Source: a virus. Taken from it: DNA of 23,918 bases. Numbering within the stretch: the first letter of the stretch is position 1; each line of letters starts with the position of its first letter. The notes beneath the pieces are model-generated. The model did not search any database and had not been told where the DNA came from. It saw only the letters and a list, made by a program, of their open reading frames with translations. Shown here piece by piece: positions 3,888 through 23,918 of this stretch. The stretch covers positions 1 to 23,918 of the IMG/VR virus record IMGVR_UViG_3300034159_000078; one strand, written 5' to 3'. A program made the translations under genes and the position numbers.

Positions 3888-4772
3888 ATGAAAAAATCAA
3901 CCACACTGCTTGCGGTTCTTGCTGCAATTTGGGCTTTTTCAGCCCTTGGTTTTGGCCTCTTGTTCCAATCCTGTACAGAAGCAAAGCAACCACCACCACC
4001 ACCTTCAGAAACACAGGCGAACGCCCCGGCATTTTATGTTGACCCGATACCCAATGACCATTTTTGCGCAGCGATTGCGCCTGTTCAAAAAACAAGCCGG
4101 GCGGTTACGGTGAACGGAAGGCTTTGGCCGAATGGTTCAACCCTGAAAATAAAGCTGCTTGGCGGCACAGAACAACAAAGGCGGTATTTCACGGATGCTG
4201 TTCTGGAATGGAAGAAAGTAGTAAACCTTGAATTTTCTTATGTTACAACAGGGAATGCAGATTTGAGGGTTTCTTTTGTTGCTGGAAGCGGTTCATGGAG
4301 TTACATTGGAACGGATGCGAAGGGAATACAACAGGCACAGGCAACCATAAATATTGGGTGGCTTGGAAGTGACGTGTGCTTGCATGAATTTGGGCATGCT
4401 TTGGGCATGGCACATGAACAGGCAAGCCCGAATTCCACGATTTGTTGGAACAAAGAAGCGGTTTATGCAGCATTGGGCGGGCCGCCGAACAATTGGAGCA
4501 GGGAAACGGTTGATTTCAATGTGTTCAGGAAAATGACGGCACAGGAAGCAAGCGCAACGGTATTTGACCCGCTTTCAATAATGCAATACAGCGTTCCGGC
4601 TTCATGGCTTTGCCCCCCTTCCAACGGCATCCCCGGTGGCAAAGTGCTTTCTGCGCTGGACAAGAGGTTCATGGGCGAAAAATACCCAAAACCGCCCAAC
4701 CCAAATACCACCGTTTGCTTGAAGCCTTACCAAAGGGATTCCATTGCAAAATGGATGAGTGAAGCAAAATAA
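3888..4772 (+). CDS. Exported astacin-like zinc metalloprotease (lipoprotein)
   Basis: The 294-aa product begins with a lipoprotein signal (LLFQSC, Cys29) and a Pro-rich linker (PPPPP). The metzincin zinc site HEFGHALGMAHE starts at His166: His166, His170 and His176 would bind zinc and Glu167 is the catalytic base. The Met-turn SIMQY (Met232) resembles the SxMHY of astacins (peptidase family M12A). Together these define a complete metzincin catalytic domain of about 200 residues, with no propeptide visible. It is predicted to be exported and lipid-anchored, hydrolysing peptide bonds outside the cytoplasm. Its place after the tail and spanin-like genes suggests a role in lysis, host-surface degradation or lysogenic conversion; the sequence does not decide. 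Start ATG 3888 is supported by the signal peptide. Confidence 0.85.
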   Translation: MKKSTTLLAVLAAIWAFSALGFGLLFQSCTEAKQPPPPPSETQANAPAFYVDPIPNDHFCAAIAPVQKTSRAVTVNGRLWPNGSTLKIKLLGGTEQQRRYFTDAVLEWKKVVNLEFSYVTTGNADLRVSFVAGSGSWSYIGTDAKGIQQAQATINIGWLGSDVCLHEFGHALGMAHEQASPNSTICWNKEAVYAALGGPPNNWSRETVDFNVFRKMTAQEASATVFDPLSIMQYSVPASWLCPPSNGIPGGKVLSALDKRFMGEKYPKPPNPNTTVCLKPYQRDSIAKWMSEAK

Positions 4773-14334: not shown

Positions 14335-15483
14335 ATGGCAACACAGGCAATTGAAAAAGTGGTTACACCTTCCATCCGTTCCATGCAGGCAGAAGACCGC
14401 CTTTTGGCACTGAAGCAAAGCAGGCTGAAGGTTCTGTTGAAGGAGGATGTAAAATTCCAAAAAATGTGCGAAGCTGCAACGCTTTTGCTGAACAGCGAAA
14501 AATTACGGCAGTGCGATGAAGCAAGCATTTACGGCGCACTGTACAAGGCGGTGACTTTGGGGTGCAGGCTTGAACCTGAATTTGGGGAGTGCTACCTAAT
14601 ACCCCGGAAAATAAACGTTGGAACGCGGGAACGCGCTGAATGGGTTTCTGTGTGCTGCTTTCAACTTGGGTACAAGTATTGGAAAAACAAAGCCCTTGAA
14701 AGTGGCCACATTAAGTACATGGAGACGCGGGAAGTTTATGCTGAAGACCAATTTAGTTTCAAGTATGGAAGCGGGGCATATTGGGAACACATGCCAGCAC
14801 AGGAAAACAGGGGTGTGACGATTTGGTTTTATGCCGCTGCACCGCTTACAACCGGGGGTGAAGTTTTCCAAGCCATAAACAAGCAGGAAGCCGAAAAGTA
14901 CAGGCGCATGTCCGAAAGCCAATGGGAAACCACAGGAACAGGCCAAAACAGAATGCGCAAATTCAGGGAAAAGCCCACAGACATTTGGGCTGCGCATTAT
15001 GCAAGCATGGCACTGCGCTTGCCAGTAAAAAAACTGTGTTCCATGTTGCCGCTTACTGAAGCCATTGAATCCGCCATGCGCGAAGATGGGGCGGTGACGT
15101 ATATTCAGCAGAACGGCGAAATGACGCGGCTTTCTTCCGGGGAAATAGAAGCACTTGCTGAAGCCGTCGAAGTGAAGGAACTGCCCGTTCCTGAAGAACA
15201 AAAGGAAGTGTTTGAACAGTGGCAAGATGCAATTTCGGTATGTGCGGACTTTGATGCGGTTTGGAAACTTTACGAGCAGTTCAAGCAATCCGACCTGTAC
15301 CAAAGGAAAGCGTTTGTTTCCATGTTCTTTGAAAAGTTTGCAGCCGTTGCAACTGAAACGGATGAACAGTTGGGCAAGGTGTTCCATGCTTCCAAAGAAT
15401 GGCAAAAAACGCCCGAATTGGTTAAAATCCTCACCACCAAGAAGGAACAACTTGAACAGCAAAAACAAGCAGCGGCAAAATGA
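14335..15483 (+). CDS. recT: RecT-family single-strand annealing protein
   Basis: The 382-aa protein matches RecT layout: a helical N-terminus, then a core with ALYKAVTLGCRLEPEFGECYLIPR, VCCFQLGYKYW, VYAEDQF, and the C-terminal conserved helix WAAHYASMALRLPVKKL followed by MLPL. RecT proteins bind single-stranded ends and anneal them, working with a 5'-3' exonuclease. The core ends near residue 245; the remaining 135 residues form an acidic, helical extension that may bind SSB or the nuclease. The stop overlaps the start of the next gene (ATGA, 15480-15483), coupling it to the exonuclease. Such pairs repair or circularise phage DNA and can start recombination-dependent replication. Confidence 0.85.
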   Translation: MATQAIEKVVTPSIRSMQAEDRLLALKQSRLKVLLKEDVKFQKMCEAATLLLNSEKLRQCDEASIYGALYKAVTLGCRLEPEFGECYLIPRKINVGTRERAEWVSVCCFQLGYKYWKNKALESGHIKYMETREVYAEDQFSFKYGSGAYWEHMPAQENRGVTIWFYAAAPLTTGGEVFQAINKQEAEKYRRMSESQWETTGTGQNRMRKFREKPTDIWAAHYASMALRLPVKKLCSMLPLTEAIESAMREDGAVTYIQQNGEMTRLSSGEIEALAEAVEVKELPVPEEQKEVFEQWQDAISVCADFDAVWKLYEQFKQSDLYQRKAFVSMFFEKFAAVATETDEQLGKVFHASKEWQKTPELVKILTTKKEQLEQQKQAAAK

Positions 15484-16355
15484 ACACAATACCTGAATTC
15501 AAAATCCGTGCTTCAGCCATTGGAACAATAATGACTGAACCAAAGGGCAAATCAATTGCTACCAAAATAAAGGAACTGGAAGCAAAAATTGAAGAAGTTG
15601 CCCTGAAGTTGGCGGGCATTCGTGACGGCCTGAAATCTAAAATCACAACAGCCGAACGCCTTGAAAAACTGAAAGCAGAACGGGAACGCCTGCTTCCGTA
15701 CAAGGATGCGCCGCACCTTTCGCAAAGCTGCATTTCCTACCTTGAAAAGTGGTGCAATGAGTGGATTTATGGCAGGCGCATTGAATTCACAAGCAAAATG
15801 ACGGACAAGGGGAATTTGGTGGAAGAAGATTCAATAATTTATGCAAGCGGGCATATTGCAGAAATGGGGCTTTCTTCCAAAAACGTGGTTTCATTCCGGG
15901 GGGATGAATGGATTGAAGGAACGCCCGATGTTTTGACGGGGGAATATGTGTTTGATGTGAAAAGCAGTTGGACACACGACACGTTCCCTTTGTATTACAG
16001 TGAAATCCCGACAACGGACTATGATTGGCAGGTGAAGGGGTACATGTATTTGACAGGAAGGCGAAAGGGGCGGGTGCTGTATGTGCTTATGAGCATGCCT
16101 GAAGAAATGTTGCGCAAGGAAGCCCGTTGGAAGTTGGGGCAAGAATTTACAGAAATAGAATTCAATGAATTGGCAGCGCAGTACCAATATGACAACTTGC
16201 CGCCATGCTTGCGCCTGAAGGAATTTGAAGTTGATTGGGATGAAGAAGCAATTGAAGCAGTGAAGCGGCGAATTCTGGAATGCCGCAAATACATTGAAAC
16301 TTCCATTATTCCTGCCCTTGAAATCAATGCCGCCAAGTACGGCGATGATGAATAA
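15480..16355 (+). CDS. PD-(D/E)XK exonuclease, RecE/YqaJ type
   Basis: The 291-aa protein has the RecB/YqaJ-type nuclease motifs in order: Glu115 in GNLVEE, Asp150 in GTPDV, FDVKSS with Asp159 and Lys161, and Gln184/Tyr188 in DWQVKGY (QxxxY). These residues bind two metal ions and cut DNA. A coiled coil at about residues 30-75 precedes the domain. It should resect double-stranded ends 5'-3' to give 3' tails for RecT. The 4-nt overlap with recT and the family pairing make the function well supported. It lacks the long N-terminus of E. coli RecE, so it is closer in size to lambda Exo or YqaJ enzymes. Confidence 0.85.
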   Translation: MNTIPEFKIRASAIGTIMTEPKGKSIATKIKELEAKIEEVALKLAGIRDGLKSKITTAERLEKLKAERERLLPYKDAPHLSQSCISYLEKWCNEWIYGRRIEFTSKMTDKGNLVEEDSIIYASGHIAEMGLSSKNVVSFRGDEWIEGTPDVLTGEYVFDVKSSWTHDTFPLYYSEIPTTDYDWQVKGYMYLTGRRKGRVLYVLMSMPEEMLRKEARWKLGQEFTEIEFNELAAQYQYDNLPPCLRLKEFEVDWDEEAIEAVKRRILECRKYIETSIIPALEINAAKYGDDE

Positions 16356-21158: not shown

Positions 21159-21170
21159 AACATACCTTTG
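21141..21170 (+). promoter_or_regulatory. Bacteroidetes-type promoter P1 (short RNA)
   Basis: TTTG (21141-21144) and TACCTTTG (21163-21170) are 18 bp apart. The -33 box lies inside the end of the preceding gene. It would produce a transcript of roughly 60 nt that ends at the terminator 21198-21235. It lacks the TAGT extension of the other three TACCTTTG promoters. Confidence 0.75.
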
Positions 21171-21197
21171 TAAAAGTTTTTCATAGGGAGAAACCTT

Positions 21198-21235
21198 AGT
21201 TTGGGCGGAGGTTCAGAAGCCGCCCAAACTTTTTT
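21198..21235 (+). terminator. Intrinsic terminator T1
   Basis: AGTTTGGGCGG (21198-21208) pairs perfectly over 11 bp with CCGCCCAAACT (21220-21230), followed by a T tract. It lies about 28 nt after the P1 -7 box, so P1 either makes a very short RNA or this is an attenuator. Confidence 0.9.
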
Positions 21236-21243
21236 GAATGGTT

Positions 21244-21257
21244 CAGGCTTTTGCCTG
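21244..21257 (+). other. Small perfect hairpin
   Basis: CAGGC-tttt-GCCTG forms a 5-bp stem with a UUUU loop between T1 and RNA B. It has no T tract, so it is not a terminator. Confidence 0.5.
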
Positions 21258-21281
21258 TTGAAGATAAAAACACACAATAAA

Positions 21282-21379
21282 GCCCGGTTGCGGCTTTTCC
21301 AGAAGTACAATGGAATAACTGATGGGCGATTGCAACGCTTGTTGGTGAAAGGTTGCAACCGGGCAAAAGAGACTGTACT
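21282..21379 (+). ncRNA. Candidate structured RNA B with possible pseudoknot
   Basis: A perfect 10-bp closing stem pairs GCCCGGTTGC (21282-21291) with GCAACCGGGC (21355-21364). Inside are hairpins TTCCA/TGGAA (21297-21301 with 21311-21315) and GCG/CGC (21326-21328 with 21336-21338), giving a three-way junction. The loop of the first hairpin contains AGTACA (21304-21309), complementary to TGTACT (21374-21379) just after the closing stem: a 6-bp pseudoknot. Terminator T2 follows 36 nt later. No promoter of the usual type lies directly before it, so it may come from readthrough of T1 or an unseen promoter. No known RNA family is recognised. Confidence 0.5.
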
Positions 21380-21414
21380 CGAAAGATTGTTTTCATTTGG
21401 TTTTTTAGGGTTTG

Positions 21415-21448
21415 CCGTTGAAGTAGCAATGCTTCAGCGGTTTTTTTT
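21415..21448 (+). terminator. Intrinsic terminator T2
   Basis: CCGTTGAAG (21415-21423) pairs with CTTCAGCGG (21432-21440), 9 bp with one G-T wobble and an 8-nt loop, followed by T8. Promoter P3 begins 12 nt further on. Confidence 0.9.
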
Positions 21449-21459
21449 GCATAAAAAGT

Positions 21460-21489
21460 TTTGCGGTTTCGTTTTTGTAGTTACCTTTG
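21460..21489 (+). promoter_or_regulatory. Bacteroidetes-type promoter P3, replication block
   Basis: TTTG (21460-21463) and TACCTTTG (21482-21489) are 18 bp apart. TAGTTACCTTTGT (21478-21490) is identical to the promoters at 7775 and 13483. The right half of the dyad is lost here (GTTCC instead of GTAAC). Confidence 0.8.
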
Positions 21490-21495
21490 TTCCTG

Positions 21496-21654
21496 TCAAG
21501 AAGTTGGCCCGGATTGGAAACCCGGAAGAAAAGGCTGAACATACTGTTTTTTTCATTTGCGCTTTTAAAGGCGCGGGCTACAATGGGGTTTTACAGCCTC
21601 CCCGTTTGAAGGACTTCCAACCCTTCCCCGCACCTTTAGAGGCGCATTTTTTTT
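21496..21654 (+). ncRNA. Structured leader RNA A / attenuator of the replication operon
   Basis: Starting about 7 nt after the P3 -7 box, this leader of about 160 nt ends in a T8 tract. Its main stem pairs 21558-21577 with 21627-21646: 19 of 20 positions pair, two as G-U, with one C-A mismatch. The 49-nt loop holds GGGG/CCCC (21585-21588 with 21600-21603) and GAAGG/CCTTC (21608-21612 with 21622-21626), making a three-way junction. The second hairpin stacks directly on the 3' arm. Upstream GCCCG (near 21507) could pair with CGGGC (near 21574) and break the stem base, a possible antiterminator. It ends 19 nt before the zinc-ribbon gene. No known riboswitch is recognised. Confidence 0.6.
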
Positions 21655-21673
21655 GGGCAAAAACGAAAATATC

Positions 21674-21913: not shown

Positions 21914-22750
21914 ATGGCTGACCTTACATTCACAACTATTGAAGAAAGCGCACGGGCTGAACTTGCAATAAGCCGTGATGAATATGCGCTTTGCAACTAT
22001 GTTCAAACATGGGCTTCACACCCGCAAAACAGAAGGCCGGGGTGGTGCAATAGAACAAAGGAACAAACGGCTGCATTTGTAGGCATTACGCCGAGGGGGG
22101 TGCAATTGATGCTGAAGAAAATGCAAAAAATTGGCCTTATTGAAAGGTATTCCACCACACTTTTCCTGCACCGAATTACTGAAAAATGGTTTGATACGGT
22201 AACGCTTGCAAAGCAATGCCGAAAGGGTGAAGAAAGTTCACCTTTTGGGGTGAAGAAAGTTCACCCTTCAGGTGAAGAAAGTTCACCTCTCAGGGTGAAG
22301 AAAGTTCACCCACATAAGGAATTTAATAACTCCCCTATTAAGAGTGGGGAAAACGCACCCACACAACCGGGGGCTTTTGTTCTTCAGAAGAAAGTTGAAA
22401 CGGCAGATGAAGCGGAGGGGTTGATAATGGCATGGGCAGAAGGTGAAGGCCGGGAAACGGTGCGTTCATGGTATTCAAACGCATACAGGAAATGCACGGT
22501 TGCTGATGTGAAGAAAATGGTGCAAGAATTCGTGCATGCTTATTTGACAATTGGGGATGCCGGGAAGCGTGAACGAATGGAACGCGACCCATTGCAGTGC
22601 TTCAAGTATTCCTTCAAGGTGTTTCTTACAAGGCAGGCGGGTTTTGAAAGGCAGGCTGAAGAAAAGAAAACAGCACAAAACGGGCAAAACAAAGAAGCCA
22701 TTTATGAAAGCCCTGTAATTCCAGTTTTCACAAGTAAAAGCGGCAACTAA
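21914..22750 (+). CDS. Winged-helix replication initiator carrying the origin
   Basis: The 278-aa protein has a helix-turn-helix / winged-helix N-terminal domain (about residues 20-95; TKEQTAAFVGITPRGVQLMLKKMQKIGLIERYS looks like recognition helix plus wing, here residues 48-80). A linker at 105-135 is encoded by the four iterons, and a helical C-terminal part (about 155-255) follows. This matches the plan of phage initiators such as lambda O: DNA-binding domain, linker encoded by ori, then helicase-recruiting domain. DnaB follows 2 nt after the stop. It should bind the iterons, open the AT-rich DNA beside them and load the helicase. Family membership is by architecture, not by a named motif; a DnaD-like primosome protein is the alternative. 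Confidence 0.75.
   Translation: MADLTFTTIEESARAELAISRDEYALCNYVQTWASHPQNRRPGWCNRTKEQTAAFVGITPRGVQLMLKKMQKIGLIERYSTTLFLHRITEKWFDTVTLAKQCRKGEESSPFGVKKVHPSGEESSPLRVKKVHPHKEFNNSPIKSGENAPTQPGAFVLQKKVETADEAEGLIMAWAEGEGRETVRSWYSNAYRKCTVADVKKMVQEFVHAYLTIGDAGKRERMERDPLQCFKYSFKVFLTRQAGFERQAEEKKTAQNGQNKEAIYESPVIPVFTSKSGN
22226..22310 (+). repeat. Four palindromic iterons, candidate replication origin
   Basis: GGTGAAGAAAGTTCACC occurs exactly at 22226-22242, 22249-22265, 22271-22287 and 22294-22310. Each unit is a 6-bp inverted repeat (GGTGAA/TTCACC) around GAAAG. Start-to-start steps are 23, 22 and 23 bp. Copies 2 and 4 extend by one more G/C pair. They lie in the initiator gene and are read in alternating frames. 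Confidence 0.85.
22311..22350 (+). other. AT-rich segment and hairpin beside the iterons
   Basis: The DNA after the fourth iteron is richer in A and T (ATAAGGAATTTAATAA) and contains TCCCC/GGGGA (22331-22335 with 22346-22350). In lambda-type origins the strand opening occurs in an AT-rich segment next to the iterons, so this is the candidate unwinding site. Confidence 0.45.
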
Positions 22751-22752
22751 AA

Positions 22753-23918
22753 ATGGAAAGTTCTACACAGCAAAACAGGCAACAACCAAACAGGAATTCA
22801 AAAAGAAGAAATGAAGTTGAAAACGATTCACTTTCAAACTTTGTATTTGGAAAAGTTCAACCACAGGCTTTGCCACTTGAAGAAGCTGTATTGGGCGCAC
22901 TTATGTTGGACAGGGAGGTTTTACCAAACATCATTGAAATCCTGAAGGTTGAAAGTTTTTACAAAGAAGCGCACCAAAAAATCTATCAGGCAATCATAAA
23001 CCTGTACAACAAAAGCGATGCAATTGATTTGCTTACTGTTACGGAAAGGATTGCTTTTGAAGGAAACCTTGAAGCCGTTGGGGGCGGTTACTACCTTGTT
23101 GAACTTTCAAACCGTGTTGCTTCAGCGGCAAATGTTGAATACCATGCACGGATAATTCAACAGAAGTACATTCAGCGGCAAATTATTTCAATAAGCACCC
23201 AAAACATACGGGAAGCGTATGAAGATACAACGGATGCGCTTGAACTGCTTGAAAGGGCAGAAGTTGAAATTCTTGGAATCAGGGATGCACAGGTTGGGCA
23301 GGAACACAAGATGCCTGAATTGGCAGTTAGGGTTTTGAAAGACCTTGAAATGCGTTCTTCAAAGACGGGGTTGATTGGTGTTCCTTCAGGGTTTAGGGAT
23401 TTGGACGCAAAAACAAGCGGGTTTCAAAATTCTGACTTGATTATTGTTGCCGGAAGGCCCGGTTCAGGAAAAACGGGTTGGGCTTTATCCGTTGCCCTGA
23501 ATGCCGCTGTTTACCAAAAAAAGCCCATTGGCTTCTTTTCGCTTGAAATGAGTGCTGACCAACTGTTCATGCGGCTTGTAAGCATGGTTGCAGAAGTGAA
23601 CAGTGAAAAATTGAAGTGTGGAACGCTGGAAGATTGGGAATGGGAAAAGGTTGGCCGGGCAATAGAACTTCTTTCAAATGCGCCGATTCACATTGACGAC
23701 ACGGCAGCTTTGAACATTATGGATTTGCGGGCAAGGGCAAGAAGAATGAAACAGCAGTTTGGAATTGAAACGGTTATTGTGGATTATTTGCAGTTGATGA
23801 CGGGAACAAGGGAATTTGGTGGAAACCGGGAACAAGAAATTGCTTCAATTTCAAGGGGGTTGAAAGCCCTTGCTAAACAATTGAACGTTCCAGTAATTGC
23901 GCTTGCACAACTAAGCCG
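22753..23918 (+). CDS. dnaB: Replicative DNA helicase DnaB, 3' partial
   Basis: The frame starts at ATG 22753, two bases after the initiator stop, and runs off the window after 388 codons. The N-terminal domain (LPLEEAVLGALMLD, about residues 40-150) is typical for DnaB. The RecA-like motor has Walker A GRPGSGKT at 234-241, FFSLEMS, and Walker B-like VIVDYLQLM with Asp344. DnaB is the hexameric 5'-3' helicase that opens the fork and recruits primase. The missing part should hold only the last 60-100 residues. A phage-coded DnaB next to its initiator may remove the need for a separate helicase loader; none is visible. Confidence 0.95.
   Translation, partial: MESSTQQNRQQPNRNSKRRNEVENDSLSNFVFGKVQPQALPLEEAVLGALMLDREVLPNIIEILKVESFYKEAHQKIYQAIINLYNKSDAIDLLTVTERIAFEGNLEAVGGGYYLVELSNRVASAANVEYHARIIQQKYIQRQIISISTQNIREAYEDTTDALELLERAEVEILGIRDAQVGQEHKMPELAVRVLKDLEMRSSKTGLIGVPSGFRDLDAKTSGFQNSDLIIVAGRPGSGKTGWALSVALNAAVYQKKPIGFFSLEMSADQLFMRLVSMVAEVNSEKLKCGTLEDWEWEKVGRAIELLSNAPIHIDDTAALNIMDLRARARRMKQQFGIETVIVDYLQLMTGTREFGGNREQEIASISRGLKALAKQLNVPVIALAQLS

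Follow-up and report, generated by a model that had tools for sequence, protein, structure and literature searches.

A lambda/P22-style candidate replication origin within a phage initiator gene, and the recurrence of its palindrome in distantly related phages

Known in-gene origins and the locus analysed

In lambda and Stx phages, the replication origin lies mid-gene in O and is made up of iterons plus an AT-rich tract; the O protein is dimeric, and in the lambdoid phage P27, iteron changes that spare it abolish transformation and plasmid establishment (PMC7466680). The lambda O gene carries four palindromic iterons 20–24 bp apart at mid-gene (TCCCTC-N5-GAGGGA), followed by an AT-rich stretch, and lambda pairs this origin with the helicase loader P and the host DnaB, having no DnaB of its own. 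In P22, an origin is annotated inside gene 18, and the adjoining gene 12 encodes a DnaB homologue (PMC8022706). In this gp18-gp12 module (NC_002371), too, the palindromes fall within the linker of the O-like initiator, and the phage DnaB comes directly after it; the copies are imperfect, with the arms TTTACC/GGTAAA. Iterons of both phages show a 6-N5-6 format and 20/24/23 spacing; the original prediction had cited the four palindromic iterons in lambda O. A third system, gp41-gp42 of the cultured Bacteroidota phage Cellulophaga phi39:1 (NC_021804), combines a helix-turn-helix initiator, three in-gene palindromic repeats 21–22 bp apart and a DnaB gene downstream.

Here, we analysed a virus record of 23,918 bases (hereafter the window; numbering starts at its first letter). 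The features of the locus are as follows.

21914–22750, plus strand: initiator gene, encoding an O-like winged-helix replication protein of 278 aa (open reading frame; phrog_345; HTH_Crp_2)
22043–22153, plus strand: helix-turn-helix core, residues 44–80; Arg61 of the recognition helix is codon 22094–22096
22226–22242, plus strand: iteron 1, GGTGAA-GAAAG-TTCACC, read GEESSP
22249–22265, plus strand: iteron 2, 17 bp identical to iteron 1, read VKKVHP
22271–22287, plus strand: iteron 3, 17 bp identical to iteron 1, read GEESSP
22294–22310, plus strand: iteron 4, 17 bp identical to iteron 1, read VKKVHP
22314–22343, no strand assigned: putative unwinding element, 73% AT; related genes are also AT-rich after the last iteron
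22753–23918, plus strand: replicative helicase gene dnaB, truncated by the contig end

The initiator is a distant member of its class. Its match to phrog_345 (“replication initiation O-like”), which places it in that group, is weak (E=1.4e-4, residues 18–158), and its Pfam match to HTH_Crp_2 (E=4.7e-4) lies under the curated cut-off. Pfam gave no match to Phage_rep_O (PF04492) at E≤1, so that the protein does not fall in this family. In profile comparisons, to which the repeat-encoded peptides contribute, an O alignment containing lambda and P22 matched a set whose lead sequence was the window protein with 99.6% probability (E=7e-25) and the window protein alone with 52% (E=1.4e-4). The P22 initiator and the window protein are not closely similar in sequence, no close homologue appeared in viral, phage or plasmid collections, and no solved structure was found by sequence.

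Only 2 bp separate the initiator stop codon from the ATG of dnaB, whose product matches PF03796 (8.7e-66), PF00772 (3.8e-31) and phrog_19 (7.8e-89), as expected from the helicase gene predicted here. Thus, the window holds a P22-type module: an O-like initiator with an in-gene array, directly followed by a phage DnaB. In the original prediction, the point of interest was an in-gene origin paired with a phage DnaB in a Bacteroidota phage, but this pairing is not new, because P22 and the Bacteroidota phage phi39:1 already have it; the candidate origin described here is one more of the lambda/P22 style, an arrangement already known. It differs from phi39:1 in having four copies instead of three, and GGTGAA-N5-TTCACC instead of the repeat core GACAAAATTGTC. 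The proposed Bacteroidota host is plausible, as in the plasmid collection the top five matches to DnaB all came from Bacteroidota. The best DnaB matches among fecal contigs labelled “Bacteriophage sp.” were set aside: no initiator precedes DnaB in them, and they are possibly bacterial.

Elsewhere in the window, ∼500 bp without a clear gene (21163–21660) lie upstream of the initiator operon. A TACCTTTG box precedes each of the two blocks in this region, which have many long hairpins ending in T-runs and folding z-scores of −5.0 and −3.9. Rfam gave no match above threshold for this region; the blocks are possibly phage small RNAs or structured leaders. A RecT-like annealing protein (phrog_148, 1.8e-37) followed by an exonuclease (phrog_5715, 2.5e-38) is encoded at 14335–16355, and a protein with a HEFGHALGMAHE motif, resembling zinc metalloproteases, at 3888–4772.

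The iteron array of the window

A pattern scan of the window recovered four exact copies of GGTGAAGAAAGTTCACC, a 17-bp palindrome built as 6+5+6, at spacings of 23/22/23. All four lie after the winged-helix region, in the linker part of the initiator gene, as originally described. No exact GGTGAA-N5-TTCACC occurs elsewhere in the whole window. Allowing up to two mismatches, the window contains ten sites compared to a mean of 1.2 in shuffled sequences; the largest number in any shuffle was four, and ten were reached in none of 100. The reading frame alternates from copy to copy, giving GEESSP and VKKVHP in turn, and as the third frame contains TGA, only these two frames are possible for the iteron. 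The conserved unit of the array is the 17 bp of DNA and not the peptide.

The most AT-rich 30 bp, 22314–22343, lie after the array on the dnaB side and reach 73% AT compared to 54% for the gene, so the AT-rich stretch predicted after the iterons is present, although short. GC skew was positive on either side of 22.3 kb, with the contig ending only 1.6 kb beyond. Together, the palindromic iterons in the initiator linker, their format and spacing, and the putative unwinding region next to them resemble a lambda-O-like origin. Origin function has good support from the comparisons below, and we consider it very probable that the phage replicates from this array, as lambda and P22 do from theirs. 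In the model we favour, each palindrome is probably occupied by an initiator dimer, which makes contact by way of the winged helix, and the four dimers, spaced by ∼2 helical turns, would form an O-some-like complex. This complex would melt the AT-rich DNA at 22314–22343 and load the DnaB that the phage itself encodes immediately downstream, and replication would start at the array.

Recurrence of the array in other initiator genes

The original prediction had proposed searching related phages for the same palindrome. We searched viral contigs by DNA pattern alone, counting as a locus at least two exact copies of GGTGAA-N5-TTCACC. In all 28 viral loci, the array lay within a single open frame, and a helix-turn-helix was visible before it in 27; the remaining locus (L003) is cut by the contig start. 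Among three genome contigs with exact palindromes, two carried them in an initiator (an alphaproteobacterium and a Thermoflexales MAG), and the third, from a Terriglobia MAG, had its strict-pattern array outside an initiator gene. This last locus (L011; G003:C47 near 133503 and 139349) holds three exact copies and a second array ∼5.8 kb from the first, neither of them in any initiator gene. The relaxed pattern GTGAA-N5-TTCAC yielded at least 120 stretches compared to 18 for a control pattern of the same composition, and none of the 18 lay in an initiator gene. Among the matches listed, the relaxed-pattern stretches were mostly initiators, with some collagen-like repeats or non-coding DNA. The phylum to which the alphaproteobacterium belongs was sampled with 398 genomes; apart from the seed, only a single genome matched, and the match was an initiator.

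The 59 repeat-bearing proteins matched phrog_270 (“replication initiation protein”; 52/59), HTH_36 (46/59) and Phage_rep_O (7/59), and the other repeat-bearing initiators are only 12–28% identical to the window protein. Dozens of phages whose relationship is very distant have this palindrome at the corresponding place in the gene. We found no description, in the open-access literature, of one palindrome recurring in initiators this divergent. For example, the IMG/VR viral contigs L002 and L006 carry exactly the 17-bp iteron of the window at the same place in a helix-turn-helix initiator, adjoining a DnaB-like protein that is 33% identical; however, their initiator is only 24% identical, and they have five copies with a spacing of 34/23/22/72.

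The partner gene varies. DnaB was the commonest recognised partner at the repeat-bearing loci found (13 of 48 neighbouring proteins), followed by DnaC/IstB-like (8) and lambda-P-like (5) proteins. Relatives identified through DnaB (L024–L046) lacked GGTGAA sites, and several had other linker repeats. In L030 (2922–3683) and its relatives L025, L031 and L035, initiators adjoining DnaB carry linker repeats of another kind, with 12- or 24-bp steps and GTAAA in place of 22-bp palindromes.

Array geometry was compared across 57 initiator genes: a single representative of each 70%-identity cluster, together with L021 and L023 as additional members of the L012 cluster. Of the 154 spacings up to 60 bp, 111 measured 21–24 bp, ∼2 helical turns (21, 22, 23 and 24 bp in 20, 35, 32 and 24 cases), 13 measured 33–34 bp and 11 measured 17 bp. 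All codon phases were present in this main cluster of spacings. This bears on the reading that the repeats serve as a linker peptide and that repetition of the DNA is incidental. The linker is indeed repetitive as peptide, and it could stem from duplication of 45 bp (15 codons), but identical 17-bp units encode unrelated peptides in two frames, every codon phase is used across the 57 genes, and the iteron changes in P27, with the O protein unchanged, abolish transformation (PMC7466680); a peptide function is thus very improbable. Instead, the comparison supports the original proposal of a lambda-O-like in-gene origin in which selection would act on the DNA.

In 51 of the 57 genes, AT content was higher over the 60 bp that follow the array than over the remainder of the gene (p=5e-10, as with all our p-values a guide only, since the genes are related to an unknown degree). 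In 30-bp bins, the first bin after the array averaged 68% AT compared to 53–55% before it. These data also weigh on the possibility that the palindromes are operators, through which the initiator only represses its own operon while the origin lies elsewhere. A winged-helix dimer on palindromes is a repressor mode too, roadblocks inside genes exist, and origin binding often also represses. Nonetheless, the array begins ∼310 bp into the gene with no promoter-like site found near it, its in-gene position followed by AT-rich DNA recurs across the 57 initiator genes, and the layout is that of the proven lambda origin (PMC7466680). An operator-only role is therefore improbable, and an origin remains the preferred reading of the array.

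Arm sequence and residue 61 of the initiator

Agreement of the central 5 bp came to 0.75 among the sites of one gene compared to 0.34 across genes, and 2000 permutations never exceeded 0.41. In the closely related initiators L012, L021 and L023, the centres are ATAAC, GTAAC and CCTGG, each uniform within its own gene. As centres are alike within a gene yet differ among such close relatives, this points to repeat homogenisation, instead of base reading, as what shapes the centre of the palindrome.

On the protein side, a single alignment column was conserved at 90% or more in the 59 initiators: Arg61, which is residue three of the recognition helix. Arginine was present in 56 of the 59 aligned palindrome-bearing initiators, compared to 1 of 11 initiators with other in-gene repeats (Fisher 8e-9, uncorrected for phylogeny). 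In a second set, seven named phages related to L097, palindrome-type sites (GTG[A/C]A-N5-TTCAC or GTGA-N7-TCAC) were present in all three with Arg and in none of the four without it, which keep repeats at 21–24 bp but with other sequences. The known systems differ at the same position: lambda has Lys and P22 has Thr. Likewise, the “replication protein O” phages Ab1656-2, Pm86 and vB_EcoM_APEC (Acinetobacter, Pasteurella, Escherichia) have in-gene palindromic repeats in an O-like protein gene with P or a helicase downstream, but their arms are TGTCGG-N5-CCGACA and others, and they lack Arg at position 61. These alignments suggest a correspondence between the palindrome and a single residue of the initiator, Arg61.

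Such a match also speaks to the idea that the palindromes function by folding into hairpins, as RNA or as a single strand, in translation control or priming. The 6-bp arms and 5-base loop can fold, and terminator-like calls were made on the minus strand. In opposition to this, the arm sequence follows a probable DNA-contact residue of the protein, Rfam gave no match over the initiator gene, and in degenerate sites beside the arrays, changes were compensated in the opposite arm in 1 of 13 cases against 0.5 expected. A hairpin role is hence scarcely credible, and we retain the reading of the palindromes as iterons bound by the initiator as DNA.

A broader proposal, which in our judgement has an even chance of being right, is that a GTGAA...TTCAC half-site is common to O-like initiators, otherwise near-unrecognisable as relatives, from phages of several bacterial phyla; position 61 would largely set this half-site, and the central five positions would be free and homogenised per gene. 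A link between half-site and recognition-helix Arg was not found described in the open-access literature. If it holds, the origin specificity of O-like initiators would be readable from sequence. With DNA as its only input, the survey offers a cheap route to phage origins and initiators, and the residue-to-arm rule is a testable specificity rule for initiator and iterons. Such a rule is relevant to the question of which phages, satellites and plasmids are able to activate one another's origins.
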